Source: Chloroflexota bacterium (GTDB taxonomy: Bacteria > Chloroflexota > Dehalococcoidia > Tepidiformales > Tepidiformaceae). From it: a stretch of DNA of 64,000 bases. Below are positions 18,094-42,824 of this stretch, in pieces (positions within the stretch are counted from its first letter, which is position 1; each line of letters opens with the position of its first letter). A program made the position numbers and the translations under genes. Under the pieces are notes generated by a model. That model had not been told where the DNA came from, ran no database searches, and worked only from the letters and a program-made list of their open reading frames with translations. The stretch covers positions 310,001-374,000 of the forward strand of contig JACRBT010000002.1 in assembly GCA_016234445.1 (NCBI GenBank). Direction: 5' to 3'.

Positions 18094-18162
18094 ACGCTAG
18101 CAGGGTGTCGACAGTCTGTCAACAGCTGAAAGATTGAAACTTACATCCAGCGAGGGTAACAT
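18094..18162. promoter_or_regulatory. bidirectional promoter with shared 23-bp motif (site 1)
   Basis: TGTCAA at 18117-18122 and TTGAAA at 18134-18139 are 11 bp apart. Read on the minus strand, TTGACA is followed 17 bp later by TAGCGT (18099-18094), pointing to the crotonase operon. Read on the plus strand, TTGAAA is followed 17 bp later by TAACAT (18157-18162), pointing to the CoA-transferase at 18249. This is one of nine sites with the same layout in this region. Confidence 0.65.
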
Positions 18163-18248
18163 CCAGGCAGCGCGAGATATCTGCGACTCACCGGGGCGGC
18201 CAGCGCGATGACAGCGCCAGCTCGCCTCCATGGTCCTATGGGGGAGCG

Positions 18249-19376
18249 ATGCTTCTGAAGGGTGTTCGGGTCTTAAGCCTTGCCCAACAGTATCCCGGGC
18301 CGTACTGCACGATGCTGTTGGCGGATCTCGGGGCGGACGTGATATTGCTGGAGCAACCGAAGAAGGGCGATCCCGCACGCGCCTTCCCGCCGTTCTTCGC
18401 CGCGGTAAACCGCGGCAAACGAAGCCTCACCGCAGACCTCAAGTCAGAGTCTGGTCGGGCCATCTGCCTGGAAGTGGCGGCCACTGCAGATGTCTTCCTC
18501 GAGGGGTTCCGCCCAGGAATAATGGACGCCCTCCGGCTTGGCCATGAGGAGCTGCGTCGCGAGTTTCCCCGCCTCGTGTACTGTTCGATTTCCGGGTACG
18601 GCCAGTCGGGCCCGTACCGCAACCGGCCCGGCCATGACCTGAGTTACCTCGGGGTCGCGGGAGCACTCGGCAATGAGAGCGAGGGGGCGTTGCACCCCGG
18701 ACTGGCCATAGCCGATCTCTCTTCCGCTATGTTCGCCACCGTCGGTATTCTCGCCGCACTCATCGAAAGGGCGAGCTCGGGGGTCGGGCGGTACGTCGAC
18801 GTCTCGATGACGGACGGCCTGGTCTCGTGGATGGGGGCGGTGATCGAACCGCTCCTGAATGGAGAGGCAAGCCCCTCGTCACAGAGGGAGCCTGCTTATG
18901 GCATCTTCAGTTGCGGAGACGGCGAATCGATCACGTTGAGCATCGCCCACGAGGATCATTTCTGGAGCAACCTGTGCCACTGCCTGGACTTGGGTGATCT
19001 GGCCAGCCTCAACGCTCAGGAACGTCGCGACCGGCGAGAGCCGCTGCGGGACGTCATCGCGCGACGCCTTCTCGACCGACCCCGCCACGACTGGCTCACC
19101 CTCTTCGATGAATCCAACGTCCCGGCCGCGCCGAAGCTTTCACCCGATGAAGTGATCCAGGACCCTCAACTGTTGGCACGAGGACTGTTCGCGCGAATGC
19201 CGGGCCGGGGAGAAGAGGGGAGATGGCACGTCCGCAATCCGCTGCAGTTCTCTGGCCTGCCTGCGACGCTCCCCCGACCGGCCCCCAGCCTCGGTGAGCA
19301 CACAGAAGCGCTCCTCGGCGAGCTCGGCTACTCGCACGAACGAATCCAGAGCCTGAGGGCGGAAGCCACGGTGTAG
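18249..19376 (+). CDS. family III CoA-transferase (CaiB/BaiF)
   Basis: The 375-aa protein begins LKGVRVLSLAQQYPGPYCTMLLADLGADVILLEQPKKGDPAR, followed by AAVNRGKRSLTADLKSESG, LVYCSISGYGQSGPYRNRPGHDLSY and a HTEALLGELGYS end. This is the standard CaiB/BaiF fold, with the catalytic Asp in the PGHD segment. It moves CoA between a donor thioester and a carboxylic acid and so would activate the pathway substrate. GGGGG precedes the ATG. It is probably co-transcribed with the double-length CoA-transferase 200 bp downstream. Confidence 0.92.
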   Translation: MLLKGVRVLSLAQQYPGPYCTMLLADLGADVILLEQPKKGDPARAFPPFFAAVNRGKRSLTADLKSESGRAICLEVAATADVFLEGFRPGIMDALRLGHEELRREFPRLVYCSISGYGQSGPYRNRPGHDLSYLGVAGALGNESEGALHPGLAIADLSSAMFATVGILAALIERASSGVGRYVDVSMTDGLVSWMGAVIEPLLNGEASPSSQREPAYGIFSCGDGESITLSIAHEDHFWSNLCHCLDLGDLASLNAQERRDRREPLRDVIARRLLDRPRHDWLTLFDESNVPAAPKLSPDEVIQDPQLLARGLFARMPGRGEEGRWHVRNPLQFSGLPATLPRPAPSLGEHTEALLGELGYSHERIQSLRAEATV

Positions 19377-19576
19377 TCGCGCCGTGAAAGGAATCCTGCG
19401 CTCACGAGGTGCCTGGGCGCCAGGGAGTGGGTCGCCGGCGAACGCTGATAGTCGGCAGCGGACGTGGGAGGTGCTATCGTGGCGCGCGGCTGCCTAACGC
19501 CTTTCACTGGCGCCGTCGGCCGGAAGAGCCCCCGGTGGAGACATCCGCCCGGGGCGTCAACATTGTGGAGATTCAA

Positions 19577-22030
19577 ATGAGTTCCGCCCGTCTGCTTTCC
19601 GCTCTCCGGGTCATCGACCTGACCGACGAATGGGGCCTGATGGCGGGCTCCATCCTTGCCGACCTGGGAGCCGACGTCATTCAGGTAGAACCGCCGGGCG
19701 GCTCCGCCGCGCGTCGCATCGGCCCGTTCGCGCAGGGGAAGAGTGCAGACCCGGAGCAATCCCTCTTTTGGTGGGGATATGCTCGGAACAAACGGAGCGT
19801 GGAGCTCGACGTCGCGACTAGGGCTGGGAGGGAGACCTTCCTCGCGCTCCTCGAAGGCGCCGACTGCCTCATCGAATCCACGAAGCCCGGTTACCTGTCG
19901 AGCGTGGGGTTGGGCTACACCGCCCTTGCAGAGAAACACCCCGGACTGATCGTGACTTCCATCACCCCCTTTGGCCAGACCGGGCCCAAGGCCCTGTGGC
20001 CCGCCACAGACATCACGATCATGTCGGCTTCCGGCTACCAGTACACGTGCGGCGACCATGACCGCGCTCCCCTCAGAATCGCCGTCCCGCAGGCCTACCC
20101 TCACGCCGCGATGACGGGAGTGGTGGGTACACTCCTCGCCCTCCGCGAGCGCGCGCAGAGCGGTCTCGGACAACACGTCGACATTTCCGCGCAGGAAGCA
20201 GCCACATGCTGTTCCGTGCCCGCCCAACTCGCCGAGCCATGGGGCGAATCGCCCATGGTTAGGCGCGCGGGGGGGTACATGCACGGCGGCATCTTCACCC
20301 GGACGACCTACCCCGCGAAGGACGGCTTCGTCTCCATCTCGTTTCTCTTCGGGAGCACTGTCGGGCCGGCGACCCAGCGGCTGGTCCAGTGGATGTATTC
20401 CGAGGGCGGCTGCGACGAGTCCGTTCGCGACAAGGACTACGTCGCCATGGGAGCCCGGCTGATGGGCGGCGACGAACCGCTCAGCGAGCTGGCCCGAGTC
20501 CACGAGACCGTAGCCCGCTTCACCGGCACGAAGACCAAGGCAGAGTTGCTGAAAGCCGCCCAGGACCACGACCTCTTGATCGCCCCATGCGCCACCATCG
20601 CCGAGGTCCGCCACGACGCACATCTGGCTACACGCGGCTTCTACGAGCCGGTGCAGGTCGGCGCCAACGAGGTGCATGTCCCAGGCCCGTTTGGCAAGTT
20701 CTCCGGGGCGCCGTTGGAGAAAGCACGACGAGCGCCTCGCATCGGCGAGCACACGTCTGAGGTGGTCGCCGAATTGCGGAGCCGGCCGAAGACTGCGCCC
20801 GCAGCGGGCGACCACCCAACAGGGGGGCTGCCGTTGAAGGGGCTCAAGGTCCTCGACTTCGGCTGGGCTATGGTGGAGCCGAGTTCGATGCGTGTTCTTG
20901 CAGACTTTGGTGCAACAGTCATAAAGGTAGAGAGTACGAAACGGTTCGACACGTTGCGGAGCGTCGGCACCCGCAATGGTGGCTTCGATCCCGATTGCAG
21001 TCTCTCGTTCCAGGACTTCAGCGCCGGGAAAACGGGCATCGCTCTCGACCTCACAAAGCCGGAGGCTCAGGAGGTCGTGCGCCGGCTTGCCGCTTGGGCC
21101 GACGTCCTCGGCGAATCGTTCACGCCTTCGGCAATGCGCCGGTGGAATCTGCATTACGAGGCCCTCCGGGAGGTCAACGATCGGCTGGTCTACCTGAGCA
21201 CGTGCCTTGGCGGACAGTTCGGTCCCTACAGCGGGATGGCTGGCTATGGGAATCTCAGCGCGGCGCTAACCGGCTTCAACGCCCTTTGTGGCTGGCCAGA
21301 TCGCGCGCCCGCCGGACCGAATGGCTATTACACGGACTACGCCACACCGCCTTTCATCGTTGCCGCGGTGCTGGCGGCGCTGGAGTATCGAGACCGCACA
21401 GGCAAGGGGCAGCACATCGACATCGCTCAGATCGAGGCCCCGGTGCACTTCCTAACCCCGGCTATCCTCGACTACGAGGTCAACGGCCGCGTGCTCGAAC
21501 GAGCTGGCAATCGCTCGGAGGAAATGGCGCCCCACGGCGTCTTCCCGTGCCTGGGTGACGATCGCTGGGTAGCGCTGGCAGTGGAAGACGACGCCCAGTG
21601 GACGACGTTCTGTATCTTGCTGGGGAGGCCCGAATTCGCGCGCGACCGTCGCTTCAACTCGCTTGCTGCGCGCAAACAGAACGAGGACGCAATCGAGCAG
21701 GAAGTCGGAGCATGGACCTCGCGACAGGCGCCCGAGACCGTCCAGGACTCCCTCATTGCGGCCGGCATTCCCGCCCACGTCGTCTCCAACGCGCGGGATC
21801 TCTACAACGACGCGCAACTGCAGCACCGCTGCCATTGGGTCTCCGTGCCCCACGCGACGCTCGGCGACATCGTTGTGGAGACCACACGCGTGAAGCTCAG
21901 CCGGACACCAGGCCGAACGCTGAGCGGCGCGCCAACGATCGGGCAGGACACCTTCTCGGTGCTGACGGAAATCGCCGGCTACAGTCCCGACGAAGTCGCC
22001 AACCTCGCGGCGAGTGGGGTGCTTCAATAA
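19577..22030 (+). CDS. double-domain family III CoA-transferase
   Basis: At 817 aa this is two CaiB/BaiF modules in one chain. The first starts LSALRVIDLTDEWGLMAGSILADLGADVIQVEPPGGS, the second near residue 420 with LKGLKVLDFGWAMVEPSSMRVLADFGATVIKVES. The N-terminal module keeps an Asp at the catalytic place (WPATDITIMSASG). The C-terminal module has MAGYGNLSAALTG, where Gly replaces that Asp, so only one half is likely to be catalytic. The ATG at 19577 follows GGAG; an upstream in-frame extension to 19409 is unlikely. A close paralogue is encoded at 30703-33144. Confidence 0.9.
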   Translation: MSSARLLSALRVIDLTDEWGLMAGSILADLGADVIQVEPPGGSAARRIGPFAQGKSADPEQSLFWWGYARNKRSVELDVATRAGRETFLALLEGADCLIESTKPGYLSSVGLGYTALAEKHPGLIVTSITPFGQTGPKALWPATDITIMSASGYQYTCGDHDRAPLRIAVPQAYPHAAMTGVVGTLLALRERAQSGLGQHVDISAQEAATCCSVPAQLAEPWGESPMVRRAGGYMHGGIFTRTTYPAKDGFVSISFLFGSTVGPATQRLVQWMYSEGGCDESVRDKDYVAMGARLMGGDEPLSELARVHETVARFTGTKTKAELLKAAQDHDLLIAPCATIAEVRHDAHLATRGFYEPVQVGANEVHVPGPFGKFSGAPLEKARRAPRIGEHTSEVVAELRSRPKTAPAAGDHPTGGLPLKGLKVLDFGWAMVEPSSMRVLADFGATVIKVESTKRFDTLRSVGTRNGGFDPDCSLSFQDFSAGKTGIALDLTKPEAQEVVRRLAAWADVLGESFTPSAMRRWNLHYEALREVNDRLVYLSTCLGGQFGPYSGMAGYGNLSAALTGFNALCGWPDRAPAGPNGYYTDYATPPFIVAAVLAALEYRDRTGKGQHIDIAQIEAPVHFLTPAILDYEVNGRVLERAGNRSEEMAPHGVFPCLGDDRWVALAVEDDAQWTTFCILLGRPEFARDRRFNSLAARKQNEDAIEQEVGAWTSRQAPETVQDSLIAAGIPAHVVSNARDLYNDAQLQHRCHWVSVPHATLGDIVVETTRVKLSRTPGRTLSGAPTIGQDTFSVLTEIAGYSPDEVANLAASGVLQ

Positions 22031-22180: not shown

Positions 22181-23107
22181 TTACCTGCTACGGAGACGCG
22201 GGTCGAGGACGTCCCTGAGGCCATCTCCGAGCATGTTGAATCCGAAAACCGCCAGGCTGAGAGCCAGGCCGGGCCAGAAGGCGAGCCAGGGAGAACGGAA
22301 GAAGTACTGCCGGCTGCCTCCGCTCAGCATGGTTCCCCAGGACACGTCCGGCGGGGTCACGCCAAGGCCAAGAAAGCTGAGCGATGCCTCGGCGAGAATG
22401 GCGTTCCCCAGCCCGAGCGTGGCCAGGATGATCACGGGAGCCGTGATGTTTGGCAAGATGTGGAACAGCATGATGCGCACGTCACCGGCCCCGATGACCT
22501 TCGCCGCGTCGACGTACAGGTTCTGCTTCGTGGCTAGTGTGGCCGCCCGCACGACCCGTGAATTCGGGAAGGTGTAGGCGAATCCGAGCAGGAGTGTCAC
22601 CGTCGTCAATCCCGGCCCGGCGATCGCGGCGATCGTCAGGATGATGACGAGCCATGGGAACGACATCCACATGTCCACAAGGCGCTGGGCAACGGTGTCC
22701 AGCCAGCCACCGTAATAGCCACCCACCACCCCGATGATGAGCGCTCCGGCGGTGGATATTGCAACCGCCCCGAACCCGACATAGATCGACGTGCGAGCCC
22801 CATGAACGACGAGGCTGAACGAGTCCCTGCCCAAGCTGTCCGTGCCCATCAGGTGCCGGAGACTCGGCCCCTGCAGCCTGTCTATTGGATTCACCGTGTC
22901 CACCGCATACGGGGCGATCAGATCGGCGAAGACGGCAACGCCGACGATCGCCAGGACAATCGCCCCGCCGGCAACCGCCAGGGGCTTGTGCGTCCACGGC
23001 CGGATCGCTCTTCTCAGGCGCCCCGCCCGCGTCGCCCCGGCGTCCATCCGCGGCGGGACTAGGAGCTCCCCCTGGGCTTCCGAGGCTGGCATTCCGGTCA
23101 CAGGCAC
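22181..23107 (-). CDS. ABC transporter permease, DppC/OppC type
   Basis: The 308-aa inner-membrane protein has an N-terminal transmembrane segment (LAVAGGAIVLAIVGVAVFADL), then MGTDSLGRDSFSLVVHGARTS and the EAA-type loop YVDAAKVIGAGDVRIMLFHILPN, all typical of the second permease of peptide/nickel importers. The GTG start follows GGGAG. It is the third gene of the SBP-DppB-DppC operon. No ATPase gene follows: the next gene is convergent. Confidence 0.92.
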   Translation of the reverse strand: MPVTGMPASEAQGELLVPPRMDAGATRAGRLRRAIRPWTHKPLAVAGGAIVLAIVGVAVFADLIAPYAVDTVNPIDRLQGPSLRHLMGTDSLGRDSFSLVVHGARTSIYVGFGAVAISTAGALIIGVVGGYYGGWLDTVAQRLVDMWMSFPWLVIILTIAAIAGPGLTTVTLLLGFAYTFPNSRVVRAATLATKQNLYVDAAKVIGAGDVRIMLFHILPNITAPVIILATLGLGNAILAEASLSFLGLGVTPPDVSWGTMLSGGSRQYFFRSPWLAFWPGLALSLAVFGFNMLGDGLRDVLDPRLRSR

Positions 23108-23117
23108 TCAGGCTCCC

Positions 23118-24065
23118 TCAGTTTTGGAACTTTATCCGCGGATCCAGGTACGCGTACGCGACATCGACCGCGAGGTTGGTGAACACCACGATGAGCGCGA
23201 TCACCAGGTTCAGCATCTGAATCATCGGATAATCGCGCTGGCTGACGGCGTTTAGGATAAATCTGCCCATCCCCGGTAGGCCGAAGATAGACTCGATGAT
23301 CACGGCCCCAGACAGGACCCCGGGGACCAGGAGCCCGATGAACGTCACGACCGGCATGAGAGCGTTCTTCAAACAGTGGCGCGTGACCACCACCCGCTCC
23401 CGCAGACCCTTCGCCAAGGCCGTTCGCACGTAGTCCTGCTGGAGCACTTCCAACATCATGGACCTGGTCATTCGCATGATGCTTGCCACGTAGAAGCAAG
23501 ACAGAATGGCAGCTGGAACGGCGAACTGCTTGAGGTTCGCAACTGGATCGTCGGTGAAGTGAATCAGTACGGGCGGTGGGCTATATCCCCACCACCGCGA
23601 GCCAAACACGATAAGGAGCGTTGCCAGCCAAAAGCTAGGGAGCGAAAGCGCCAGGATCGCCAGGCAGCGACTCACGTAGTCCCGAGCGGTGTTCTGGCGC
23701 GCAGCCGATATGATACCGATTGGAATCCCGGCCACCACGGCGAACGCCAGCGTCATCAAGCCCAGCTCGAAGCTGACCGGGAACGTCCGCCGAAGTTCCG
23801 CAAAGCCGTCTCGCTTCGTGATCAGCGAGGAGCCGAAATCCCCGCGGGCAACGCCTCCCAGCCATGACAGGTACTGTTCATAGATGGGCTTGTCCAGTCC
23901 CAGGTCCTCCCGCATGGCTTCCTTGGTTGGGGCATACCGGTAGTCTTCCACCAGGATGTCCACGGCGTCCCCGGGCAAGAACCGGACGAGCGCGAAGACA
24001 ATGAAGGTCACGCCGATCAGCGTCGGCAGAGCCAGCGCGAGCCGTCTTACTACGTAGCTCAGCAT
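23118..24065 (-). CDS. ABC transporter permease, DppB/OppB type
   Basis: MLSYVVRRLALALPTLIGVTFIVFALVRFLPGD and EDLGLDKPIYEQYLSWLGGVARGDFGSSL are characteristic of DppB/OppB. The coupling loop DYVRTALAKGLRERVVVTRHCLKNALMPVVT contacts the ATPase. It is 315 aa from the ATG at 24065, which has GGAG six bases upstream. It forms the membrane channel with the downstream permease and receives substrate from the upstream lipoprotein. Confidence 0.93.
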   Translation of the reverse strand: MLSYVVRRLALALPTLIGVTFIVFALVRFLPGDAVDILVEDYRYAPTKEAMREDLGLDKPIYEQYLSWLGGVARGDFGSSLITKRDGFAELRRTFPVSFELGLMTLAFAVVAGIPIGIISAARQNTARDYVSRCLAILALSLPSFWLATLLIVFGSRWWGYSPPPVLIHFTDDPVANLKQFAVPAAILSCFYVASIMRMTRSMMLEVLQQDYVRTALAKGLRERVVVTRHCLKNALMPVVTFIGLLVPGVLSGAVIIESIFGLPGMGRFILNAVSQRDYPMIQMLNLVIALIVVFTNLAVDVAYAYLDPRIKFQN

Positions 24066-24196
24066 GAGCGACTCCGATTCGGGAAGGCGGGGTTGAGCCG
24101 GGGCCCGCAAACAGAACTCATCTGCGGACCCCCCTCAGCGCCGGTACCGGGCGGGCCAACCTGGCTTGCGGCGCAGGCCGGCGATCGCGGTCGGCA

Positions 24197-25984
24197 CTAT
24201 CCTTTGTCGATCCACGCACTGCTGATCGCGTTCCCGATCATGAACCCCCAGTAGGGATCGCTTCCATAGAAGCCAGCAACGTCCATGCCCTTTATCCAGG
24301 GTTGGAACGCCTCGTACGAAGTCAGGGACCCACCGTAGACGCACTGCTGTTGCACCGCCTCATAGCGCTGGATGTCTTGCAGGATTGTCAGGCGCTTGGC
24401 GTTATCGAACTCCGCGCGCTGAGCTTCCAGCATCTTCGTGAACGCGGCATCGTCGACCCGCCCATACCGGGTGGCGCTGCCGGGATAATACCAGCGGTAG
24501 GTGACGGAATCGGGGTCGGGGAGCGCCCCGGGGCCCGTCATGCCCATCTGCTTCGGCATCCCGGCGTGAGTGGTTCCGATGAAGCTCGCGTAGTCCTGGA
24601 GTTCGACCTTGGCCCGGATCCCCGCGTCCTTCATATTGGCCACAAACTGCGTGAACTCATCGAAGAACCAGGGCGGCGATGGCGGAGACGTGAGGGTCTC
24701 GAACGTGATGTCTATGCCGTTGGCATAGCCTGCGGCGGACAGGAGCGCCTTTGCCGCCGTGACATCACGCTTGAAGTACTTGCTGCCTTCACCGAGCTTG
24801 TCCAAGGGCAGGGACAGTGCCGGCCCGAAGTTCGGGCCGATGATCTGCCCAAGTGTACCCCTGCCGCCAAAGAGGCCCTTGAGGAGCCCGTCACGGTCAA
24901 GAGAGAGCGAAATGGCCTGGCGAACCTTCACGTCCTTGAACGGCAGGTCCTGCACTTCGGCTCTCATCATCATCCGCGGCCCGGCCGAGGCGCCGCCAAC
25001 GACCTCTTTGATGATCGCCTTCGAGTAGTCCTTCTTCAGCTGGTCTGCCAGGTCGGCCGGGAGGGTGCTTCCCTGCCCGATGTAGTCGAGGTCGCCCGCC
25101 TTGAAGTTTGCGATAGCCGTCTGGTCGTCGAGAACAACGACCTCGTGGTGCTCATCGACGTACGGCCCGACGCCAGTCAGGTAGTAGTTTTGGTTTCGCT
25201 TGTAGACGGTTTCGACGTCGGGCGTGACCTTGTCCACGACCCATCGTCCGGTGCCAATCGCCGATTCCGGCTTGGTGTAGTCGCCGAACTGCTTCTCGAC
25301 TTCGGGCGCGACGATGGTGGCGAAGTAGGTTGTCATGTAGCGAAGGAACGGGGCGAACGGCGTCTTCGTCTTGATCGTCACGGTGTTGGCATCAGGAGCC
25401 GTCACGGAGTCCACGCTCGCGAACATGGCCCCGTAGAAGAGCGACTTCGGATCCATGCGGCGCTGAAGGCTGTAGAGGACATCCTGGGCGACCAACGCCC
25501 GGCCGTTCACCGGCGGCTTGTTGTGGAACTTGACGTCCTGGCGCAGGTGGAACGTATACGTCGTTGCGTCAACCTGCTCCCACTTCCCCGCCAGCCCAGG
25601 CTCGACCGTAAAGGAGCCCGGGGCGGCGTCGTACTTCATCGTGACCAGTGGTTCGTAGATGAAGCTGGCGGGTCCGTGCACGCGGAGGCCGGTATTCGCA
25701 AAGACGTCGTAGTTCAGCGTGCCCTGCTGGTACGTGCGAAAGCGCGTGACCCCACCCTTCTTGGGAGCTGGCGTCGAGGCAGCAGGTGAACCGGTCGAGG
25801 ACGAGGTAGTGCTGGTCGCCTCAGTGGATCCGTTGTCGTCGTCATCGCCACAGCCCACGGCTGCCAGCCCCGCAAGACCGAGGGACCCAACGCCGGCACC
25901 GGCGATGATCCGCCGCCGCGATGCCCTTCGGGCCCAGAAGCGGGACCAATACTGCGACTCCTGGCCGGAATTTGCGTGGCTCAT
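24197..25984 (-). CDS. ABC transporter substrate-binding lipoprotein, family 5
   Basis: The 595-aa protein has an N-terminal twin-arginine-like SRRRIIAGAGVG segment followed by a lipobox ending LAAVGC and an Asp/Ser/Thr-rich linker, so it is probably exported and lipid-anchored. The body shows family 5 (DppA/OppA) traits: YNYEPLV-like FIYEPLVTMKYD, TYTFHLRQDVKFHNKPPVNGRALVAQDVLYSLQR, and a long two-lobed C-terminus. It should capture an organic substrate, perhaps a peptide-like or acid compound, for the two permeases. GAGGG lies six bases before the ATG. Promoter site 2 lies about 120 bp upstream. Confidence 0.92.
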   Translation of the reverse strand: MSHANSGQESQYWSRFWARRASRRRIIAGAGVGSLGLAGLAAVGCGDDDDNGSTEATSTTSSSTGSPAASTPAPKKGGVTRFRTYQQGTLNYDVFANTGLRVHGPASFIYEPLVTMKYDAAPGSFTVEPGLAGKWEQVDATTYTFHLRQDVKFHNKPPVNGRALVAQDVLYSLQRRMDPKSLFYGAMFASVDSVTAPDANTVTIKTKTPFAPFLRYMTTYFATIVAPEVEKQFGDYTKPESAIGTGRWVVDKVTPDVETVYKRNQNYYLTGVGPYVDEHHEVVVLDDQTAIANFKAGDLDYIGQGSTLPADLADQLKKDYSKAIIKEVVGGASAGPRMMMRAEVQDLPFKDVKVRQAISLSLDRDGLLKGLFGGRGTLGQIIGPNFGPALSLPLDKLGEGSKYFKRDVTAAKALLSAAGYANGIDITFETLTSPPSPPWFFDEFTQFVANMKDAGIRAKVELQDYASFIGTTHAGMPKQMGMTGPGALPDPDSVTYRWYYPGSATRYGRVDDAAFTKMLEAQRAEFDNAKRLTILQDIQRYEAVQQQCVYGGSLTSYEAFQPWIKGMDVAGFYGSDPYWGFMIGNAISSAWIDKG

Positions 25985-26077: not shown

Positions 26078-26124
26078 AGGCTAGCATCCGGCCGAAGCTT
26101 CTGTCAATAGATAAAACTTTGCAA
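26078..26124 (-). promoter_or_regulatory. promoter with shared motif (site 2), before the ABC operon
   Basis: On the minus strand TTGCAA, 11 bp, TTGACA (26124-26102) is followed 18 bp later by TAGCCT (26083-26078). The inner sequence AGTTTTATCTA nearly matches that of site 5. It points at the substrate-binding protein gene at 25984. Confidence 0.62.
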
Positions 26125-26253: not shown

Positions 26254-26940
26254 CTATCGGGAACCTCGGTGCCAGGGCGTTCGTTCATACAGCCCGCGGA
26301 CCGCTCCCGCGAGCCACCTGGAGTCCGGGGTAGCCGCTGACGCCGGTATCGACGTCCATGAGCGCCCGATCCCGGCCGGCACGTGAGCGTCGCTCCCGGC
26401 GACGGGCACGTGCGCGGCAAGGGCGGCCAGGCTGCGAGCAGCGTGATTCTCGGAATCGGTGCATCCGTTGTTTTCCACTTCGATGGCGTGGACCTGGCCA
26501 GCCTCGATGATCCTCCGAAGGCGCGGGTGGATCGTGTTCCCGGCTTCGGGGAGGCCGACGTCGAACAGGCCACGGAACGGGTGAGCGAGCACGAGGATCG
26601 CCCCGGCGTCCCGCGCTTCAATGGCGAGGTCCTCGAGTCGGCGGTGCCGGGGATACTCCTTCATACCGACGACTATGACGTGTCCTAAGTCTGTTGTGAC
26701 TTCGGCGCCTGGAAAGACCGTGAAGCTCGCCGTCGAAAACCGCTCAGCTTCCCCCTCGGCCCAGACGCGATAGTGCTCCGCCACCACGACGCCATCGAGG
26801 CCGCAACGGATCGCTGCGTCTACAAGCTGCTCGGGCGTCGTCCCGCTATCAGCGGACCCCAGGCGGGAGTGAACGTGGAAATCGATCCGGAGGGTTCTTG
26901 ATACCGGGTCGGCGTCGTTGCTGTTGGGGGGCTCTCCCAT
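26254..26940 (-). CDS. PHP-domain phosphoesterase
   Basis: The 228-aa protein carries the metal-binding motifs of the PHP fold: DFHVHSRLGSAD, GAEVTT, LAHPFRG, AIEVENNG and GSDAHVP. PHP proteins hydrolyse phosphate esters of nucleotides or small molecules using two or three metals. GGAGG lies three bases before the ATG. It is transcribed alone from the region shared with the acyl-CoA dehydrogenase promoter. A link to the CoA pathway is not evident. Confidence 0.85.
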   Translation of the reverse strand: MGEPPNSNDADPVSRTLRIDFHVHSRLGSADSGTTPEQLVDAAIRCGLDGVVVAEHYRVWAEGEAERFSTASFTVFPGAEVTTDLGHVIVVGMKEYPRHRRLEDLAIEARDAGAILVLAHPFRGLFDVGLPEAGNTIHPRLRRIIEAGQVHAIEVENNGCTDSENHAARSLAALAAHVPVAGSDAHVPAGIGRSWTSIPASAATPDSRWLAGAVRGLYERTPWHRGSR

Positions 26941-27088
26941 GCGCCTCCGGTCCCTTTCTCGTTTAGGCGGAGCACAGCGCCGCCAAACGGACTGGCAGCC
27001 TCGCCGATGCCCACCCGCAACGGCAGCGGGGCTGCGCTGGCACCCGCGACCGTAGCAGTGTCATCCTGGTTGTGTCAAAATCCGTCTG

Positions 27089-27134
27089 TTTCAAATATTC
27101 AAGTATTGACTTAAGCCGTTGAGGAGGCTAGCCT
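27089..27134 (+). promoter_or_regulatory. promoter with shared motif (site 3), before acyl-CoA dehydrogenase
   Basis: TTTCAA (27089-27094), 11 bp, TTGACT (27106-27111), then 17 bp and TAGCCT (27129-27134). It points toward the acyl-CoA dehydrogenase at 27358 and leaves a leader of about 215 bases, in which I see no gene. Confidence 0.6.
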
Positions 27135-29826: not shown

Positions 29827-29914
29827 TGAATCTCACTCCTAGGGATTGCGACGAAGGTGAAGGTATCGCGGGCGACGTGAAACGGGATCAAGGCGAATCA
29901 TCGTCATAGAAGGT

Positions 29915-33144: not shown

Positions 33145-33215
33145 GGGATGACTTCCTCTGTTCCGTGGCTGGCCGCCCATGGGTTCAGTGGCTGCAGAAA
33201 GACCAGACCCCCGGC

Positions 33216-34604: not shown

Positions 34605-35398
34605 CACCGGTCGTCTCGCTCTCCTACGAACCCGCGGAGGTGGAGTCCGCCCTGACGCTGGATCGAGTCGGCGCGCATGAGCGCATCGGCAACGGTCCGC
34701 TGGGAAAGATCAAACCCGTCGGCGCGAAGTCGATCCTCAAAGCCCGACAGGTGCCGCCCCATGACGTACTCGGCACGCTGCCCATCTCGTTTCCGGAGCT
34801 CGCGGACGATCGCCCGGTGGGCGCGACCTTGCTCTACGACCAGTTGCGGGTCGTCGACGGTCGTGTCCAGGTCTCGGACCAGGCGTTCGATCGACCGCAT
34901 CAGCAGGAGCAGAGTCTGGCAATGGGCGGCCGTTGCGACTCCGACGTGAAATTGGGCGTTGAGTTCAGGGATGTAGAGCTCGGACTCGGCCTGCTGCTCG
35001 ATCGTCGAATCAAGGAAGTCCAGTTCCGCCTCGGATGCGTTCTCGGCGGCCAGCCGGGCGCAGGCCGGCTCGATCACGGACCGCGCGACCATGAGGTCGG
35101 CCAGGGGAGTGCGGTTCCGGGCGAGGATTCCCTCGAACGTCCGGGCAAGGACATCGGCGTCCGGGGAGCGGAGGTAGATCCCGCCACTGTGGCCGCGCCG
35201 AACTTCTAGCAGGCCATCCTGCTCCAGCAACCGGAGAGCCTCACGGAGGTGGTGATGGCTGATCCCGAGTTGCTGCGCGAGCTCAGGCTCCGGTGGAAGC
35301 CGTTCGACGCCAGCGAGGCTGCCGTAGAGGATCATTCGCCTCAACTCGCCGGCCACGACCTGGGACGCGCGTTTGATCTCGATCCCCGGCAATTTCAT
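34604..35398 (-). CDS. GntR/FCD family transcriptional regulator
   Basis: The N-terminal winged helix (RMILYGSLAGVERLPPEPELAQQLGISHHHLREALRLLEQDGLLEVRRG) and the all-helical FCD ligand-binding domain (ARSVIEPACARLAAENASEAEL, then NAQFHVGVATAAH) define a FadR/VanR-like regulator of 264 aa. The ATG at 35398 has GGAGGAG eight bases upstream. FCD regulators usually respond to acids or acyl-CoAs and repress their own operon. Site 5 lies in its promoter and site 6 in front of the divergent DUF35-thiolase genes, so it is the best candidate controller of the nine-site regulon. Confidence 0.93.
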   Translation of the reverse strand: MKLPGIEIKRASQVVAGELRRMILYGSLAGVERLPPEPELAQQLGISHHHLREALRLLEQDGLLEVRRGHSGGIYLRSPDADVLARTFEGILARNRTPLADLMVARSVIEPACARLAAENASEAELDFLDSTIEQQAESELYIPELNAQFHVGVATAAHCQTLLLLMRSIERLVRDLDTTVDDPQLVVEQGRAHRAIVRELRKRDGQRAEYVMGRHLSGFEDRLRADGFDLSQRTVADALMRADSIQRQGGLHLRGFVGERDDR

Positions 35399-35429: not shown

Positions 35430-35476
35430 ATCCTACCACTCAAATCTTCCATCTGGCAAAGTTTTATACATTGACA
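35430..35476. promoter_or_regulatory. gntR promoter with shared motif (site 5)
   Basis: TGGCAA (35454-35459), 11 bp, TTGACA (35471-35476). On the minus strand the left arm reads TTGCCA and is followed 18 bp later by TAGGAT (35435-35430), a plausible gntR promoter. On the plus strand no good -10 follows TTGACA. The inner 11 bp AGTTTTATACA differ from site 2 at only two positions. Confidence 0.6.
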
Positions 35477-35585: not shown

Positions 35586-35631
35586 CTTCAACATTTCAGA
35601 TGTTGACAGCCACGATCCTGCCTGATAGCGT
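35586..35631 (+). promoter_or_regulatory. promoter with shared motif (site 6), before DUF35-thiolase
   Basis: CTTCAA (35586-35591), 11 bp, TTGACA (35603-35608), exactly 17 bp, TAGCGT (35626-35631). The -10 hexamer is the same as at sites 1 and 9. It faces the DUF35-thiolase-kinase unit starting at 35807. Confidence 0.65.
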
Positions 35632-35806
35632 TCGCTCGCGACGGTCAGGTCAGGTCCCGGGGGCTCGGCCGTCCGGCACCGTGTACCAGGCCCACCGCTG
35701 TCCGCCCAAAGTCCAACCACGGCGCTCGGAGCGGCGCCTCCCCGCGGGTCGGCGGCCCTGTGGAAGAACTCGTCGGTGGGTGATACCCCAGGTTGAGGAG
35801 GCAGTC

Positions 35807-36223
35807 GTGAGCCAGGCAGAACAAGAAGGATCGGCCTTCATAGTCCCTGAATGGATGCGTTGGGCCTCGGACCGAAAGCGCCTGGTCCTTGTGGGCCAAC
35901 GCTGCAGGGCGTGCGGCATCGCCTTCTTTCCAAAGACAGCCCGCTGCAAGGCGTGCTACTCAGCGGAAGTCGTCGAGGCTGAATTCGGCCCGGAAGCTGA
36001 GCTTCACTCGGTCACTATCGACCACACCGGCACCTTTCTCGGGCGCCCGCACCTCGTCGGACAGGTGCGACTCGATGATGGGCCCTTCGCCCAGGGGTTC
36101 GTCGACGCCGGCGTTGATGCCGAACCGGCGATCGGTTCCCGTGTAGACCTCGTCCCGTTCAGCGTGCCGGCTCTCCAAGGTACGGGGACATTGACCACCT
36201 ACGCCTTTAGGCCCAAGGAGTAA
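35807..36223 (+). CDS. DUF35 OB-fold/zinc-ribbon protein
   Basis: The 138-aa protein has a rubredoxin-like zinc ribbon (CRACGIAFFPKTARCKAC) followed by an OB-fold (LHSVTIDHTGTFLGRPHLVGQVRLDDGPFAQG). DUF35 proteins bind the acyl-CoA or scaffold thiolase-like partners, as in the archaeal thiolase/HMG-CoA synthase complex and in Ltp2-ChsH2 aldolases. The GTG at 35807 follows GAGGAGG. The thiolase gene starts four bases after the stop, so the pair very likely forms a complex. Confidence 0.9.
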   Translation: MSQAEQEGSAFIVPEWMRWASDRKRLVLVGQRCRACGIAFFPKTARCKACYSAEVVEAEFGPEAELHSVTIDHTGTFLGRPHLVGQVRLDDGPFAQGFVDAGVDAEPAIGSRVDLVPFSVPALQGTGTLTTYAFRPKE

Positions 36224-36227
36224 ACCG

Positions 36228-37355
36228 ATGCGCGAAGTCGTAGTAGCAGGCGTCGGCTTGACCCGATTCGGGCAGTTCGCGGACCGAACCTACATAGACC
36301 ATGGAGTCGAGGCGGTCGTGAAGGCCCAGGCGGATGCCGGCCTCGGCTGGAGCGAGATCCAGCGAGCGTATTGCGGGGCGAGCGGGATCGGTCCGTTCGC
36401 CGGCAACCGGGTGGGGCATGAACTGGGCCTGACCGGAGCCCCGATTGTGAACCTGGACAACGCCTCGGCGAGCGGCAACTCTGCCTTCCACCAGGCGTTC
36501 CTGGCCGTTGCGACGGAGCAATGCGACGTGGCCCTGGCGATGGGAGTCGGCCAGCTTGGACGGACCATGCTCAACGCCGCTGGCAGCCAAGCAGAAACAC
36601 GCAAGTACCTGGCGCAGGCGTACGGCAACGCCATGACCATATTCGCGCTGGCCGCCCGCAGGCGGATGCACGAGTATGGCACGTCGCCGGAAATCTTCGG
36701 CCGGATAGCCGTCAAGAGTAAGTTGTACGGCGCGCTGAACCCGAACTCCCACATTCAACGAAAGTACTCGCTCGACGAAGTCATGGCGGCAAGACCGATC
36801 GCGAGCCCCTTGACCTTGCCAATGTGCTGTCCCGTGGGCGACGGCGGGGCGGCGGCGATTCTGACCACGCGTCGCGTTGCGGAACGGCTCGGCCAGCTCC
36901 ATCCGGTTCGAGTCACGGCCTCGCTGATGAAAGGCGAAGTCTTCCAGCAGGCCAGTGCCTGGAGCGAAGGAAACACCCTCGCGGTTGCCGCGCGCGAAAT
37001 GTACGAGATGTCAGGCGTTGGCCCCTCAGACCTCGATGTCATTCAACTTCACGACGCCACGTCAAGTGAGGAACTGGATTACTACGAACGGCTCGGGCTC
37101 TGCCGGGAAGGCGAAGCCGACGCCATGGTGCTTGAGGGCGCGACGGGCCCCGGAGGGCGCATCCCGGTCAACACTGATGGCGGACTGACATCACGCGGCC
37201 ATCCGCTCGGGCCAACCGGCCTCGCGCAGGTCCACGAGATCGTCCTCCAACTGCGAGGCGACGCGGGCGATCGGCAGGTGGCCGGCGCGAAGACCGGCCT
37301 CGTCCAGCAGACGGGGGCGGGCGCGGTCTGCTTCATGCACCTCCTCCAGAGGTAA
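36228..37355 (+). CDS. thiolase-like protein (SCP-x/Ltp type), Cys nucleophile replaced
   Basis: The 375-aa protein has the thiolase fold: VVVAGVGLTRFGQF at the start, DNASASGNSAFHQAFLAV at the nucleophile elbow, and NTDGGLTSRGHPLGPTGLAQVHEIVLQLRG with the catalytic His. The position normally held by Cys in N-A-C-A-S-G is Ser80, so ordinary thiolysis is doubtful. Retro-aldol cleavage, as by Ltp2 with a DUF35 partner, or a condensing or lipid-transfer role, are alternatives. AAGGAG lies seven bases before the ATG. A paralogue with the same change is at 60607-61758. Confidence 0.85.
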   Translation: MREVVVAGVGLTRFGQFADRTYIDHGVEAVVKAQADAGLGWSEIQRAYCGASGIGPFAGNRVGHELGLTGAPIVNLDNASASGNSAFHQAFLAVATEQCDVALAMGVGQLGRTMLNAAGSQAETRKYLAQAYGNAMTIFALAARRRMHEYGTSPEIFGRIAVKSKLYGALNPNSHIQRKYSLDEVMAARPIASPLTLPMCCPVGDGGAAAILTTRRVAERLGQLHPVRVTASLMKGEVFQQASAWSEGNTLAVAAREMYEMSGVGPSDLDVIQLHDATSSEELDYYERLGLCREGEADAMVLEGATGPGGRIPVNTDGGLTSRGHPLGPTGLAQVHEIVLQLRGDAGDRQVAGAKTGLVQQTGAGAVCFMHLLQR

Positions 37356-37407
37356 CCTCGTCGCCGAGTCTTCGTCCTGACCGCTATAGCCAACGGTGGA
37401 GGCCTCC

Positions 37408-38601
37408 ATGGAACCCAGCCACAACCTTGGGGTACGGGCCAGGATCAGCGCCAACGTACTGCGGGACTACATGATTCGACCGATCGCCAGGGAACCTGCC
37501 GATGTGCCGTGGGGACCACGTGGCTTGTCCGAAGAGTGGCTTACTGCCGCCCTCTGCGACAAGGTTCCCGGCGCGAGGGTCGAGTCACTTCAGGTCGGTG
37601 GCGGCCACGACGGCAGCAATGTCCGACGGGCCCTGCGCGTCGCCTATAACGATATCGGCGAGCGCGCCGGGCTACCCACCGCTCTTTACACGAAGTCCAC
37701 GCCTACGTTGCTCACGCGCCTGGCATCAGGTGTGGGAGCCGCGTCCGAAGCTAGATTCTTGACGCGCTTTGGTTCTCAGGTGCCGATCGAGCTACCAATA
37801 CTGTACTTTTCGACTAGCGATCGCGCGTCAGGTCGTAAATTTCACATCTTCGAAGACCTGGTAGCTACCAAGGCTGCCGCCTTTTGCGGTATCTCCACCA
37901 ACATATCACGAGATAGAGCGGACCAAATCGTCGATACGCTCGCTGCTCTCCATGGACACTTCTACGGCAGCGCCCTGCCGACGGACCAGAGGTTCGTCAC
38001 CTACGACGCCTGGTTTCAGGGAGGCGCACGGCTCGGGATCAAAGAGAGCCACGACAGGGCAATGGTGGAAGCCGAGGACGTGATTCCACCCGATGTCTTC
38101 GCGCGTAAGGACGATATCTGGCCCACCGCCGTCCGCATGCTCGAGCTCCACCATCGGGAGCCGCTCACACTCCTCCATAGCGATGTCCATCTAGGTAACT
38201 GGTACGTCACGGGAGCCGGGCGCATGGGCCTCGCTGACTGGGGTTGTGTCGCGCTGGGCCACTGGGCGCGGGATTTCGCCTACGCCATCTCCACGACGCT
38301 CCAGGTAGAAGATCGGCGCCTCTGGGAGAAAGACCTGCTCATGCGCTACCTCGACGCCATGCGTGAGTCGTGCGACCTGAAGGTGTCCTTTGAAGTCGCC
38401 TGGAACCAGTATCGGTCGCAACTGTTTGCGGCTCTGCTCATGTGGACGCCGACTCTCTGCCACCCGCCCACCATGCCGGATATGCAGCCAGCTTACATCT
38501 CACGGGAACTCATCAGAAGAATGGCCATCGCTATCTCTGACCTTGATACTTTTAACTGCGAGGTATGCTTCCATGATCAAACGCCAGGTGTCGTTCATTG
38601 A
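37408..38601 (+). CDS. aminoglycoside phosphotransferase-like kinase
   Basis: The 397-aa protein shows the Brenner motif LLHSDVHLGNWYV and a following metal-binding segment MGLADWGCVALGHWARDFAYAI, the kinase catalytic core of the APH/choline-kinase-like family. The N-lobe has VGGGHDGSNVRRALRVAY in place of a tight glycine loop. Members act on small hydroxylated molecules, and related genes often sit with acyl-CoA dehydrogenase pathways. The ATG at 37408 has GGAGG five bases upstream; the GTG at 37396 would overlap that site. Substrate is unknown; antibiotic resistance is unlikely here. Confidence 0.82.
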   Translation: MEPSHNLGVRARISANVLRDYMIRPIAREPADVPWGPRGLSEEWLTAALCDKVPGARVESLQVGGGHDGSNVRRALRVAYNDIGERAGLPTALYTKSTPTLLTRLASGVGAASEARFLTRFGSQVPIELPILYFSTSDRASGRKFHIFEDLVATKAAAFCGISTNISRDRADQIVDTLAALHGHFYGSALPTDQRFVTYDAWFQGGARLGIKESHDRAMVEAEDVIPPDVFARKDDIWPTAVRMLELHHREPLTLLHSDVHLGNWYVTGAGRMGLADWGCVALGHWARDFAYAISTTLQVEDRRLWEKDLLMRYLDAMRESCDLKVSFEVAWNQYRSQLFAALLMWTPTLCHPPTMPDMQPAYISRELIRRMAIAISDLDTFNCEVCFHDQTPGVVH

Positions 38602-39335: not shown

Positions 39336-40196
39336 TCAAAACCGCGTGGACGTCATTTCCTCCGTCCAGAAGTTTGGGGGCCTCTTCTCGTAGAACGATT
39401 GCGCGGCCTCTATCCGTTCGGTCCGGTTGATAAAGTGGGGATCGATCATCTGGAGATAGTTATCCGAGTAGTGAAGTCCTGCGTCGATCATCTCGAAACT
39501 CTGTCTGACGGCCGCTATGCAGCTCGGGACACGGTCGAGCAGCTCGTCGCACCAACGATCAACTTCGCGATCGAGGAGGCGATCCTGGACGACGACGTTG
39601 CAAATTCCCTGCTCCAGTGCTTCCTGCGCGGTCAGTTGCCGCAACCGCATCCAGTATTCCTTCGCACGCTTCAGCCCAACAACGTGAGCGGAACTCGCGA
39701 CGATGTAACCACTGGCTGGACTCCCCACGCGCGGTCCGTTCTGGCCGAACACGGCGCTCTCACCCGCGATGGTAAAGTCGCAGTGATAAGCCATGTGGCT
39801 GTGCATGCCGACAACGTAACCACGTACAGCCGCAATCACCGGTTTGATGCAGCGCTTAATGATTGTATCCGGACTGATACCGCCGAGTTGTGACGCAGCG
39901 GCCCCCCGGTCACCCATCTTAGACAGTTCCTCGACGTCACCGCCCACGCCGAAATGCTTGCCGGTATGCGATAGTACGATGGCCCCGATGTCGCCTCTAC
40001 TGTTTGCGTCCAGGAGCGCGTCCATCAGTTCCGCCGACGTCTCCAGACCGAACGAATTCATTCGGTCTGGTCTATTGAAACGGATGCGAGCGACTCCGCC
40101 GCAGCGCACGCCCTCTCGCACCCGGTGGTGCTGCTCGTACAGGATCGTCGAGTAGGAGTGCCCGTCCACGGCTTCCCAATCAGTCCAGTCAGTCAT
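39336..40196 (-). CDS. crotonase-family protein, MenB/BadI-like
   Basis: The 286-aa protein has IRFNRPDRMNSFG, GKHFGVGGDVEELS and MAYHCDFTIAGESAVFGQNGPRVGSPASGYI. The CDFTIA and AVFGQ-GP-VGS segments resemble dihydroxynaphthoyl-CoA synthase (MenB) and 2-ketocyclohexanecarboxyl-CoA hydrolase (BadI) more than simple hydratases, so ring closure or ring opening of a CoA thioester is conceivable. The ATG overlaps the stop of the DsrE-like gene (TGATG), so the two are coupled. Confidence 0.8.
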   Translation of the reverse strand: MTDWTDWEAVDGHSYSTILYEQHHRVREGVRCGGVARIRFNRPDRMNSFGLETSAELMDALLDANSRGDIGAIVLSHTGKHFGVGGDVEELSKMGDRGAAASQLGGISPDTIIKRCIKPVIAAVRGYVVGMHSHMAYHCDFTIAGESAVFGQNGPRVGSPASGYIVASSAHVVGLKRAKEYWMRLRQLTAQEALEQGICNVVVQDRLLDREVDRWCDELLDRVPSCIAAVRQSFEMIDAGLHYSDNYLQMIDPHFINRTERIEAAQSFYEKRPPNFWTEEMTSTRF

Positions 40197-40627
40197 CAGT
40201 AGCTCCCAATCACCGTGTTCGCGGATGTGATGAGGTCGGCGAGGGCCTGCTCGTCAATGCGCTGAAGGTAGTCCGGGTCAGCGTCAAGCCCCAGGAATGC
40301 CGTCCAGATGGGGCAGGCGACAAGCCGGAGGCCCGGTTCGGCAGAGGCGGACCGCACGAACGCACGAATGTCTGTCCACCGGGGATCGCGTTCCGCGTCT
40401 GCGATGCCATGTCCCAACCTGTCGGCTCCCCGGATGACGGTGCTGCGCATCTCCCGCCCCTTGAAATTCTGAGCCCACTCGAATGTGCCACCGGCAAGCG
40501 CCCACAGAGCCTCGCCGACGAAGACGACGGTCACATCTCCCTGGCGTTTGGCGAGCGTACGCCCGAGAGCGATGTTCCCGAGCACAGAGTCCTCGAGTGC
40601 GTCTTTGCAGATGAGCACGGTAGTCAC
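40196..40627 (-). CDS. DsrE/DsrF-like family protein
   Basis: The 143-aa protein begins VTTVLICKDALEDSVLGNIALGRTLAKRQGDVTVVFVGEALWALAGG and has a Cys in LRLVACPIWTAF, consistent with the DsrE-like alpha/beta fold used in sulfur relay and in proteins of unknown function. The GTG at 40627 follows GAGGAGGG; an upstream GTG at 40648 is less likely. It is the first gene of a two-gene unit with the MenB/BadI-like protein and is preceded by promoter site 7. Confidence 0.65.
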   Translation of the reverse strand: MTTVLICKDALEDSVLGNIALGRTLAKRQGDVTVVFVGEALWALAGGTFEWAQNFKGREMRSTVIRGADRLGHGIADAERDPRWTDIRAFVRSASAEPGLRLVACPIWTAFLGLDADPDYLQRIDEQALADLITSANTVIGSY

Positions 40628-40687
40628 GGGCCTTCCCTCCTCTTCCACGTCGTCGCGGGTGAGCTTCGGTCGCGAAGCCGCGCCGCC

Positions 40688-40733
40688 ACTCTAGGCTCGT
40701 CCCGACAATGTGTCAACCTTTGAAAGACACGAA
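40688..40733 (-). promoter_or_regulatory. promoter with shared motif (site 7)
   Basis: On the minus strand TTGACA (40716-40711) is followed 17 bp later by TAGAGT (40693-40688). Upstream, the inner block TCTTTCAAAGG matches sites 1 and 9, while the outer half (TTCGTG) is weak. The implied transcript start is about 55 bases before the DsrE-like gene. Confidence 0.55.
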
Positions 40734-40849: not shown

Positions 40850-40895
40850 TTTCATACTTCCAATACTTGATACTCGACGGATCCTGGTGTAGATT
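40850..40895 (+). promoter_or_regulatory. promoter with shared motif (site 8), before DinB gene
   Basis: TTTCAT (40850-40855), 11 bp, TTGATA (40867-40872), 17 bp, TAGATT (40890-40895). Both arms are one base off the consensus, but spacing is exact. It faces the DinB-like gene at 41025. Confidence 0.5.
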
Positions 40896-41024
40896 TCCGG
40901 CGGCTCGCCGCCCCGTTCGCGTGCCACGTCCACGGCAGGCGGCCCCGCCGTAGTCGCCGCGCCTGCGCGTCAGCCCGTGCCGGCAAACCGGCGCGGTTTG
41001 GGAGAGAGGGTAAGGTTCATCGAG

Positions 41025-41636
41025 ATGGTCACCCAAGGGCAGGTCCGCGAACTGCGCGAGAAGCTGCTGATAGAACACAGTCGTCTGGTCACCACGGCAA
41101 CGAGCCTCACGGCCGAACAGGCGAAGAGGGGCCGGCCGGACCGAGAGGGAGAGGAAGGCTGGTCGCCCCTTCAGCAGCTCAGCCACCTTTGGGAGATGGA
41201 GCTCCTCTATGACTCCTGGATCCTGGCTGCCCTCGAACGCGATCGGCCCGACATCGGGAAACTGCCGATGCTCCAGCCGGCGGTTACCATAGAGCGCGCC
41301 AACAAGCATTCGGTCCCGGAACTCCTGGCGGTGGTCGAGTCCGAGCGCGCGAGGACCCTCGCCATTCTCGACCAGCTGCAACTCGATCAGTACGACCGGA
41401 CGGCGTTGCACCCCGTCTTCGGAGAACTGACCGTCATGCAGTGGCTTCGGAGCTTCTATCGCCACGATCGCATGCACCGGATGCAAATGGCCGGCGACGA
41501 GCCCGACTACCAGCCTCGCGGAAACGGTGCCGGCATGGACCAGCGCCGGATGCGGCTGAGGCTCGGAGAGGAACGTCTTCAGGCGATTCACACGATGGAC
41601 GAGTTGCTCTCTGCTGCGTCGCAGCAGGACGAGTAA
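41025..41636 (+). CDS. DinB-like four-helix protein
   Basis: The 203-aa protein shows the DinB/YfiT pattern: LREKLLIEHSRLVTTATSLTAEQ, WSPLQQLSHLWEMELLYDSWI and MQWLRSFYRHDRMHRMQMAGDEPDY, with three spaced histidines that could bind a metal. Members include thiol-dependent isomerases and S-transferases as well as unknowns. The ATG at 41025 follows AAGG at nine bases; a GTG at 40977 would add 16 residues. Confidence 0.8.
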   Translation: MVTQGQVRELREKLLIEHSRLVTTATSLTAEQAKRGRPDREGEEGWSPLQQLSHLWEMELLYDSWILAALERDRPDIGKLPMLQPAVTIERANKHSVPELLAVVESERARTLAILDQLQLDQYDRTALHPVFGELTVMQWLRSFYRHDRMHRMQMAGDEPDYQPRGNGAGMDQRRMRLRLGEERLQAIHTMDELLSAASQQDE

Positions 41637-41684: not shown

Positions 41685-41693
41685 ACCGGCACC

Positions 41694-42650
41694 CTAGACG
41701 GGGAAGGTGGCGTGGCGCTCCAGGAACGGCCTGACTGCGTGCAGGAAGCCAACGGTGTTCTGCGAGTGGACGTTGTGTCCGCAGTCGCCAACAGTGACCA
41801 GCTCGCCCCGGGCGAGAGCGTCCGCGAACCGCCGCGCAGCGGCGGGCTCCAGAATGTTCGAGTACTGACCTCTGACAACGAGGACGGGACATGCGAACTG
41901 TTCCGCCTCGGCAAGGGACACCCGGCCTCGGGGAGCGTCGTCCGCTGCTCGACCGACGATGGTCGGATCACACTTGCTCACGTACTTCCCGTCGGCCCGC
42001 TCCAGGAGGTTGTAGCGGACGGTCCGTTCTATGTGCTCTTTCGAACGAAACGGGTCATATCCGCGGACTCGCTCGACGAACTCGTTCACGTCGAGAAATT
42101 CGACCGCCGACTCTACGAACGACCGGATGGAGGCGGCTCCCTCCAGGCTTACCTCCGGCGCAACATCGACGAGGACAGCGGCACGTGCAACTCCGGGGTG
42201 GTTCTTCAGGACGGTCATTGTCACCATGCCACCCATCGAGTGGCCGACGATGATCGGAGCATCCATTCCCAACTGCTCGATCAACGAGAATGCATCGGCT
42301 GCCATCGTGTCGATAGCATAGTCCTGGTCACGCGCCCACTCGCTGTCGCCGTGTCCTCGCTGATCCAAGGCCACCACGTGGAAGCGGTCCGCGAGAGCAA
42401 GGCTGACCAGGTCCCACGAATGCGCGGACTGGTGACCTCCGTGCAACAGGACAAGCGGCGAGCAATCCGGCTCGCCCCATTCGAGCAGGTGGAACCTGTG
42501 GTGCCGAAGGATGACGTTCAGTGACCGGTATCGCGGCACGTTCGCGTGTTTGACTCCAAGGTCGGCGGCACTTCGCACCAGGCTCTCGAACTCCTCAGTC
42601 TCAGTCATGTCTAGAGGTTCGAGCCCACTCGCGAATATATTCAGATGCAT
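41694..42650 (-). CDS. alpha/beta hydrolase
   Basis: The 318-aa protein has the oxyanion segment VLLHGGHQSAHSWD, LDQRGHGDSEW, the nucleophile elbow VGHSMGGMVT, and a C-terminal VGDCGHNVHSQ carrying the catalytic His. It may hydrolyse an ester, a C-C bond in a ring-cleavage product or a thioester; the sequence does not decide. The ATG at 42650 has GGAG seven bases upstream. Promoter site 9 lies 150 bp upstream. Confidence 0.9.
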   Translation of the reverse strand: MHLNIFASGLEPLDMTETEEFESLVRSAADLGVKHANVPRYRSLNVILRHHRFHLLEWGEPDCSPLVLLHGGHQSAHSWDLVSLALADRFHVVALDQRGHGDSEWARDQDYAIDTMAADAFSLIEQLGMDAPIIVGHSMGGMVTMTVLKNHPGVARAAVLVDVAPEVSLEGAASIRSFVESAVEFLDVNEFVERVRGYDPFRSKEHIERTVRYNLLERADGKYVSKCDPTIVGRAADDAPRGRVSLAEAEQFACPVLVVRGQYSNILEPAAARRFADALARGELVTVGDCGHNVHSQNTVGFLHAVRPFLERHATFPV

Positions 42651-42778
42651 TAGCATTCTCCGAGATCGGTCGTCGTAAGCCCAGTGCTTGCGTCCCTGGT
42701 GGCCTGGACCTCCCCACCCCACGCCCACCTCGACGACTCAGTGCCACCGCGTAGCGCGGACGACGGCGAACGCCGGTC

Positions 42779-42824
42779 ACGCTAGCGCCTCTCCAAGTTT
42801 CTGTCAATACCTGAAAGATTGCAA
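42779..42824 (-). promoter_or_regulatory. promoter with shared motif (site 9), before hydrolase
   Basis: On the minus strand TTGCAA, 11 bp, TTGACA (42824-42802), 17 bp, TAGCGT (42784-42779). The inner block TCTTTCAGGTA differs from site 1 (TCTTTCAGCTG) at only a few bases. It is the rightmost of the nine sites. Confidence 0.65.

Follow-up and report, generated by a model that had tools for sequence, protein, structure and literature searches.

A recurring 23-bp element lies at the promoters of a catabolic gene block in the window (the whole stretch of 64,000 nucleotides analyzed here, from an uncultured member of the Chloroflexota), and there is strong evidence that it is the operator of a single local regulon spanning the whole block at 18–43 kb. 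An earlier note on this DNA had proposed that one regulator controls the genes for uptake, CoA activation and oxidation together. The analysis gives this proposal good support: the element is restricted to the block, stands once at every inferred transcription unit and is missing from ordinary promoters. No reading but that of a single regulon fits both the element and its confinement. The regulon is probably run by a candidate GntR/FCD protein acting as a local repressor, which is the most likely mechanism.

By Pfam, the block encodes peptide-type ABC uptake, family III CoA-transferases, an acyl-CoA dehydrogenase, enoyl-CoA hydratases, MaoC, and a thiolase with DUF35. The genes are listed below.

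17138..18001, − strand, enoyl-CoA hydratase, first gene of its operon
18249..22030, + strand, family III CoA-transferases, a single one and then a two-domain fusion
22181..25984, − strand, peptide/nickel-type ABC uptake: solute-binding protein, OppB, OppC
26254..26940, − strand, PHP-domain protein
27358..28512, + strand, acyl-CoA dehydrogenase
28648..33180, − strand, fused two-domain family III CoA-transferase, enoyl-CoA hydratase, MaoC-like hydratase
33390..34607, − strand, family III CoA-transferase, with an overlap at the end of the GntR gene
34604..35398, − strand, GntR-family regulator with FCD ligand domain; HTH PPEPELAQQLGISHHHLREAL
35600..38601, + strand, DUF35/ChsH2-like protein, thiolase/lipid-transfer protein, APH-like kinase
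39336..40648, − strand, 150-aa protein (no Pfam match), then enoyl-CoA hydratase family protein
40977..41636, + strand, DinB-like protein
41694..42728, − strand, alpha/beta hydrolase

The hydratase operon probably reaches to about 13338, with further genes in the order SDR, luciferase-like monooxygenase, SDR and nitronate monooxygenase-like. The real start of the DUF35/ChsH2-like gene lies downstream of its promoter, and the hydratase family protein at 39336..40648 has BadI and MenB as its nearest models, below the cut-off.

Just before the catabolic block is a type I-C-like CRISPR locus, with cas3, cas5, csd1 (cas8c) and cas7 genes at 6571–12080 adjoining a repeat array at 12275–13096 (unit CTCGC(A/G)CCCGCCCTTCGGGGTGGGTGAGGATTGAAAC, period about 70). 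The minus strand at 517–6642 encodes a 2041-aa protein with DUF4011, AAA_11/AAA_12 helicase, MTES_1575 endonuclease and DUF3320 domains, whose best PADLOC model was PDC-S37 (1218 bits), followed by Hhe; it is likely a defence helicase-nuclease beside the CRISPR locus. At the other end of the block, tested ORFs in the ≈2 kb past the last site (42825–45200) had no family match, and this region is possibly non-coding or decayed.

The earlier note described nine sites in which TTNCAA and TTGACA stand 11 bp apart. All nine 23-mers were confirmed at their coordinates when read from the sequence, with the exact formula present in only three (18117, 26102 and 42802). The remaining six deviate either in the second half (TTGACT at 27089, TTGACG at 33239, TTGATA at 40850) or in the first (TTCGTG at 40711, TGGCAA at 35454, CTTCAA at 35586), so the formula describes a consensus. 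A weaker tenth site, missed earlier, was found at 27073–27095 on the minus strand, back to back with the site at 27089. The sites and their promoters are as follows.

18117..18139, − strand, site 1: TTGACA (18117–18122)-N17-TAGCGT (18094–18099), promoter of the enoyl-CoA hydratase/SDR operon
Site 1, + strand, second promoter, also missed earlier: TTGAAA (18134–18139)-N17-TAACAT (18157–18162), toward the CoA-transferases at 18249
26102..26124, − strand, site 2: TTGACA-N18-TAGCCT, promoter of the solute-binding protein/OppB/OppC operon
27073..27095, − strand, site 3b (weaker): TTTGAAACAGACGGATTTTGACA-N18-TACGGT, promoter of the PHP-domain gene
27089..27111, + strand, site 3: TTGACT-N17-TAGCCT, promoter of the acyl-CoA dehydrogenase gene
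33239..33261, − strand, site 4: TTGACG-N17-TAGTCT, promoter serving the operon of fused CoA-transferase, enoyl-CoA hydratase and MaoC; poor match in the middle box
35454..35476, − strand, site 5: TTGCCA (35454–35459)-N18-TAGGAT (35430–35435), facing the GntR/CoA-transferase operon
35586..35608, + strand, site 6: TTGACA-N17-TAGCGT, promoter of the DUF35/thiolase operon
40711..40733, − strand, site 7: TTGACA-N17-TAGAGT, promoter of the 40648–39336 operon; first box TTCGTG poor, middle box TTTCAA good
40850..40872, + strand, site 8: TTGATA-N17-TAGATT, promoter of the DinB-like gene
42802..42824, − strand, site 9: TTGACA-N17-TAGCGT, promoter of the alpha/beta-hydrolase gene

Read in the orientation of the motif, nine of the ten sites have a −35 box that is TTGACA or differs from it by one mismatch (5 or 6 of 6 consensus positions), with TANNNT at a spacing of 17 or 18 bp. 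All nine original sites had been placed on −35 boxes facing gene starts; this held for eight, which have TANNNT downstream, but not for 35454 on the strand originally given. There, no −10 was found on the plus strand. On the minus strand, the other end of the site forms TTGCCA-N18-TAGGAT, with a −35 box directed toward the GntR gene (35398), so that 35454 is the probable autoregulatory operator of the GntR/CoA-transferase operon. With operon limits inferred from gene spacing, the block comprises eleven transcription units: hydratase/SDR operon, CoA-transferases, ABC uptake, PHP, acyl-CoA dehydrogenase, fused CoA-transferase/hydratase/MaoC, GntR/CoA-transferase, DUF35/thiolase, 40648–39336 operon, DinB and hydrolase. 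Sites had been reported before nearly every unit; when 27073–27095 and the second promoter at 18117 are counted, all eleven have one. A weak match at 19555 on the minus strand was set aside, as it lacks a −10 and runs into the probable start of the gene for the fused CoA-transferase.

When oriented with TTGACA at the right, the sites aligned without gaps. Information was high at positions 1, 2, 5 and 6 (TT..AA), 9–11 and 13 (TTT.A) and 18–21 (TTGA), and A13 was invariant. Three boxes are conserved: T(T/G)(T/G)CAA at 1–6 and again, as a direct repeat, at 9–14, and the inverse TTGACA at 18–23, a consensus that can also be written as TKKCAA, TTTCAR and inverted TTGACA. The strongest symmetry is the wide dyad TTKCAA-N11-TTGACA, centered on position 12, near −41 and 6 bp upstream of the −35 hexamer, and the second best lies at about position 16 (TTTCA-N5-TGACA). 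The operator had been described as a simple TTNCAA/TTGACA dyad; this is doubtful, the middle box TTTCA being equally conserved. Site 6 (35586) carries a near-perfect dyad, TTCAACAT-N5-ATGTTGAC. The first box is absent (poor) in site 40711 and the middle box is absent (poor) in site 33239, so neither dyad alone explains every site.

A chance origin of the site set is excluded. In a leave-one-out analysis, a matrix built from eight sites ranked the ninth between 3 and 14 of 127,956 window positions for every site. When all gaps of 0–15 between [TG][TG]CAA and TTG[AC][CA] were scanned in the 18–43 kb block, a gap of 11 gave eight matches and any other gap 0–2. A Gibbs sampler that was given only the 200 bp upstream of the eleven inferred units, and not the motif, converged on the same sites at 20.0 bits, compared to 11.6–12.9 bits in 12 shuffled sets; the upstream region used for the acyl-CoA dehydrogenase was too short to include its own site.

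The candidate regulator has both an N-terminal GntR winged HTH and a C-terminal FCD domain (Pfam E = 2.6e-15 and 5.6e-19, respectively, both above the gathering score, with the longer ORF 34604–35512). It was the only transcription regulator recognized in the block by Pfam. The unannotated ORFs at 38803, 40196 and 43986 were considered as regulators and rejected, as they had no family match and none looked DNA-binding-like by eye. The placement of the operators, at the GntR gene's own promoter (35454) and at all other units, fits a local autoregulated GntR regulon. From the adjacency, the site on its own promoter and the lack of another recognized regulator in the block, we infer that the GntR/FCD protein binds the element.

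In FadR, Arg35 and Arg45 contact the guanines of the canonical TKGT-N3-ACMA operator (PMC4494728; PMC7797058), and in Atu1419 both Arg45 and its guanine are essential for DNA binding (PMC7797058). The equivalent residues here are Pro and His, leaving the guanine-contacting arginines absent, and the recognition helix is His-His-His; nearly all homologues that we read have Arg (or Lys) at the Arg45 position. The sites have no GT-N2-3-AC core in common and do not form a FadR-type TKGT-N2-3-ACMA palindrome. GT-N3-AC need not be expected for a protein without Arg35 and Arg45, and the sites have none; judged from sequence, the loss of the arginines and the motif appear consistent with GntR as the binder. 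In the FCD domain, N147, H151, H194 and H216 have the spacing of Asn137/His141/His192/His214, the Asn/His/His/His metal ligands of Atu1419 (PMC7797058), and the presence of these ligands suggests that the effector may be a carboxylate.

In the proposed mechanism, the GntR/FCD protein would bind the three-box element and thereby cover the −35 box, repressing transcription, and would also repress its own gene via the site at 35454. On binding a carboxylic acid, a substrate or product of the pathway, it would leave the DNA, and the genes for uptake, CoA transfer and beta-oxidation-type reactions would be switched on jointly. A GntR-type reading of the element would have the inner boxes, TTTCA-N5-TGACA, hold one dimer, with the outer TKKCAA as an accessory half-site. 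GntR-family palindromes often have a weaker extra half-site 7–12 nt from the center (PMC4494728), and the inner dyad plus outer box may thus fit the layout of the FadR subfamily, a match made post hoc.

Against this reading stands the symmetry of the alignment, which is strongest for the wide dyad, whose half-site spacing is untypical of GntR/FCD proteins and is not that of the FadR subfamily (PMC4494728). The same regulon might then be run by a different regulator from outside the block, such as one that binds the wide dyad, while GntR has another target; such a regulator could be encoded outside the window. We consider this rather unlikely, as no other regulator was recognized in the block, the element sits on the GntR promoter, and it is confined to the block that bears the GntR gene.

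The position of the wide dyad also bears on the direction of control. Class II activators bind at sites centered near −41, and the center of the wide dyad lies in this classical activator position, making repression uncertain. A regulator bound there might recruit polymerase, so that the pathway would be switched on rather than de-repressed. This is less likely still: −35 boxes that match 5 or 6 of 6 consensus positions at 17–18 bp spacing are more typical of repressible promoters, and the relatives FadR, PdhR and NanR are chiefly repressors.

The whole genome (3,544,494 bases in 20 contigs) was searched by pattern. Exact TTNCAA-N11-TTGACA occurs three times, each in the block, and TTKCAA-N11-TTGACA with at most one mismatch has seven of its eight matches there; at two mismatches, matches are no longer in excess of the reversed control. 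All six genomic copies of TTTYA-N4-TTGACA are in the block, with only three more added by allowing one mismatch. When up to three mismatches were allowed in the three-box pattern, it had eight matches, seven of them inside the block; its reversed control had two. The element is thus firmly confined to the block, with no cluster elsewhere in the genome. The genome has 42 TTGACA-N16-19-TANNNT promoters, six of them inside the block, and none of thirty outside the block whose upstream sequences we read had the upstream boxes. The earlier note had named equal matrix scores in coding DNA or at housekeeping promoters as the result that would speak against a regulon; the pattern counts and the thirty promoters gave no such result.

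The sites might also be alike because promoters were copied as the block grew by duplication, with no bound operator. Several gene families of the block are paralogous (CoA-transferases, hydratases), and GCAAAGTTTTAT is common to sites 2 and 5. However, flanks and spacers vary between sites while the boxes are kept, the site orientations differ, and most genes downstream of the sites have no relationship to one another (ABC transporter, PHP, DinB, hydrolase, thiolase), making this origin very improbable. Least probable of all is that the element is merely a general sigma-70 promoter signature of the genome: TTGACA is the −35 consensus and TANNNT follows as the −10, but the genome-wide counts, with TTTYA-N4-TTGACA found six times in 3.54 Mb and every time in the block, and the thirty promoters without upstream boxes refute it at the available resolution.

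No GntR orthologue was found at E below 1e-25 in the 38 genomes of the order. The best relative in the class, 44% identical, is in genome G058, from another family of the class, where the neighboring genes encode CoA-transferases, acyl-CoA dehydrogenases, hydratases, OppBC and a solute-binding protein, and a thiolase. The similarity of this gene set supports a link between the type of regulator and the gene set, which recurs at G058:C10:14000-33999 (L117) with the 44% identical GntR and two-domain CoA-transferase genes. With all gaps scanned, 48 kb of G058 contained a single related dyad, GGCAAACTGTTGAC, with a gap of 4 and on the −35 box of the GntR gene. This one site, with similar boxes at another spacing, is weak evidence. 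In a sample of the phylum, GntR relatives were only 29–34% identical, and their upstream regions, inspected by eye, were without the motif. Among 393 genomes of the class, allowing one mismatch in the three-box pattern gave scattered single matches, at most three elsewhere, and no other cluster. A search with the solute-binding protein returned only distant loci (23–31% identity), all in Chloroflexota and two in Dehalococcoidia, in keeping with a host of that phylum, and these loci lacked the motif.

The system belongs to a known kind, with an unusual operator sequence and an unusual recognition helix. The E. coli FadR-subfamily proteins PdhR, LldR and FadR likewise combine a GntR wHTH with an FCD domain. 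Like the system proposed here, their regulons provide local control of carboxylate/CoA metabolism, with operators near −35/−10 and autoregulation, and accessory half-sites have been reported for the subfamily (PMC4494728). In contrast, the canonical TKGT-N3-ACMA is absent here, Pro and His replace Arg35 and Arg45, and the boxes are A/T-rich (TKKCAA). NanR of E. coli, among the closest solved structures to the block GntR by sequence, is an FCD GntR protein with a repeated-box operator, (GGTATA)3, in more than one promoter of its catabolic regulon (PMC8012715), as here; box sequence, spacing and orientation differ, and the block GntR has other residues in place of NanR's sequence-specific Arg59 and Arg69. 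Atu1419, a VanR-group FCD-GntR protein of hydroxycinnamate catabolism in Agrobacterium, shares the metal-binding residues and acts through several operators on a cluster of catabolic genes (PMC7797058). Its operator, ATGTATACAT, has an Arg45–G contact, whereas the protein here has His in place of Arg45 and the sites follow another motif. We tentatively propose that a GntR/FCD repressor with Arg35→Pro, Arg45→His and a His-His-His helix reads a new A/T-rich three-box operator at about eleven promoters of one catabolic island in an uncultured Chloroflexota bacterium.

To our knowledge, almost nothing is known of regulation in uncultured Chloroflexota, and their many CoA-transferases are without assigned substrates. 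One operator that marks all units of a pathway tells which genes act together, and GntR with its effector is a direct handle for finding the substrate of the pathway. If GntR were confirmed as the binder, the recognition code of FCD-GntR proteins would extend beyond the Arg–G contacts that define the family.
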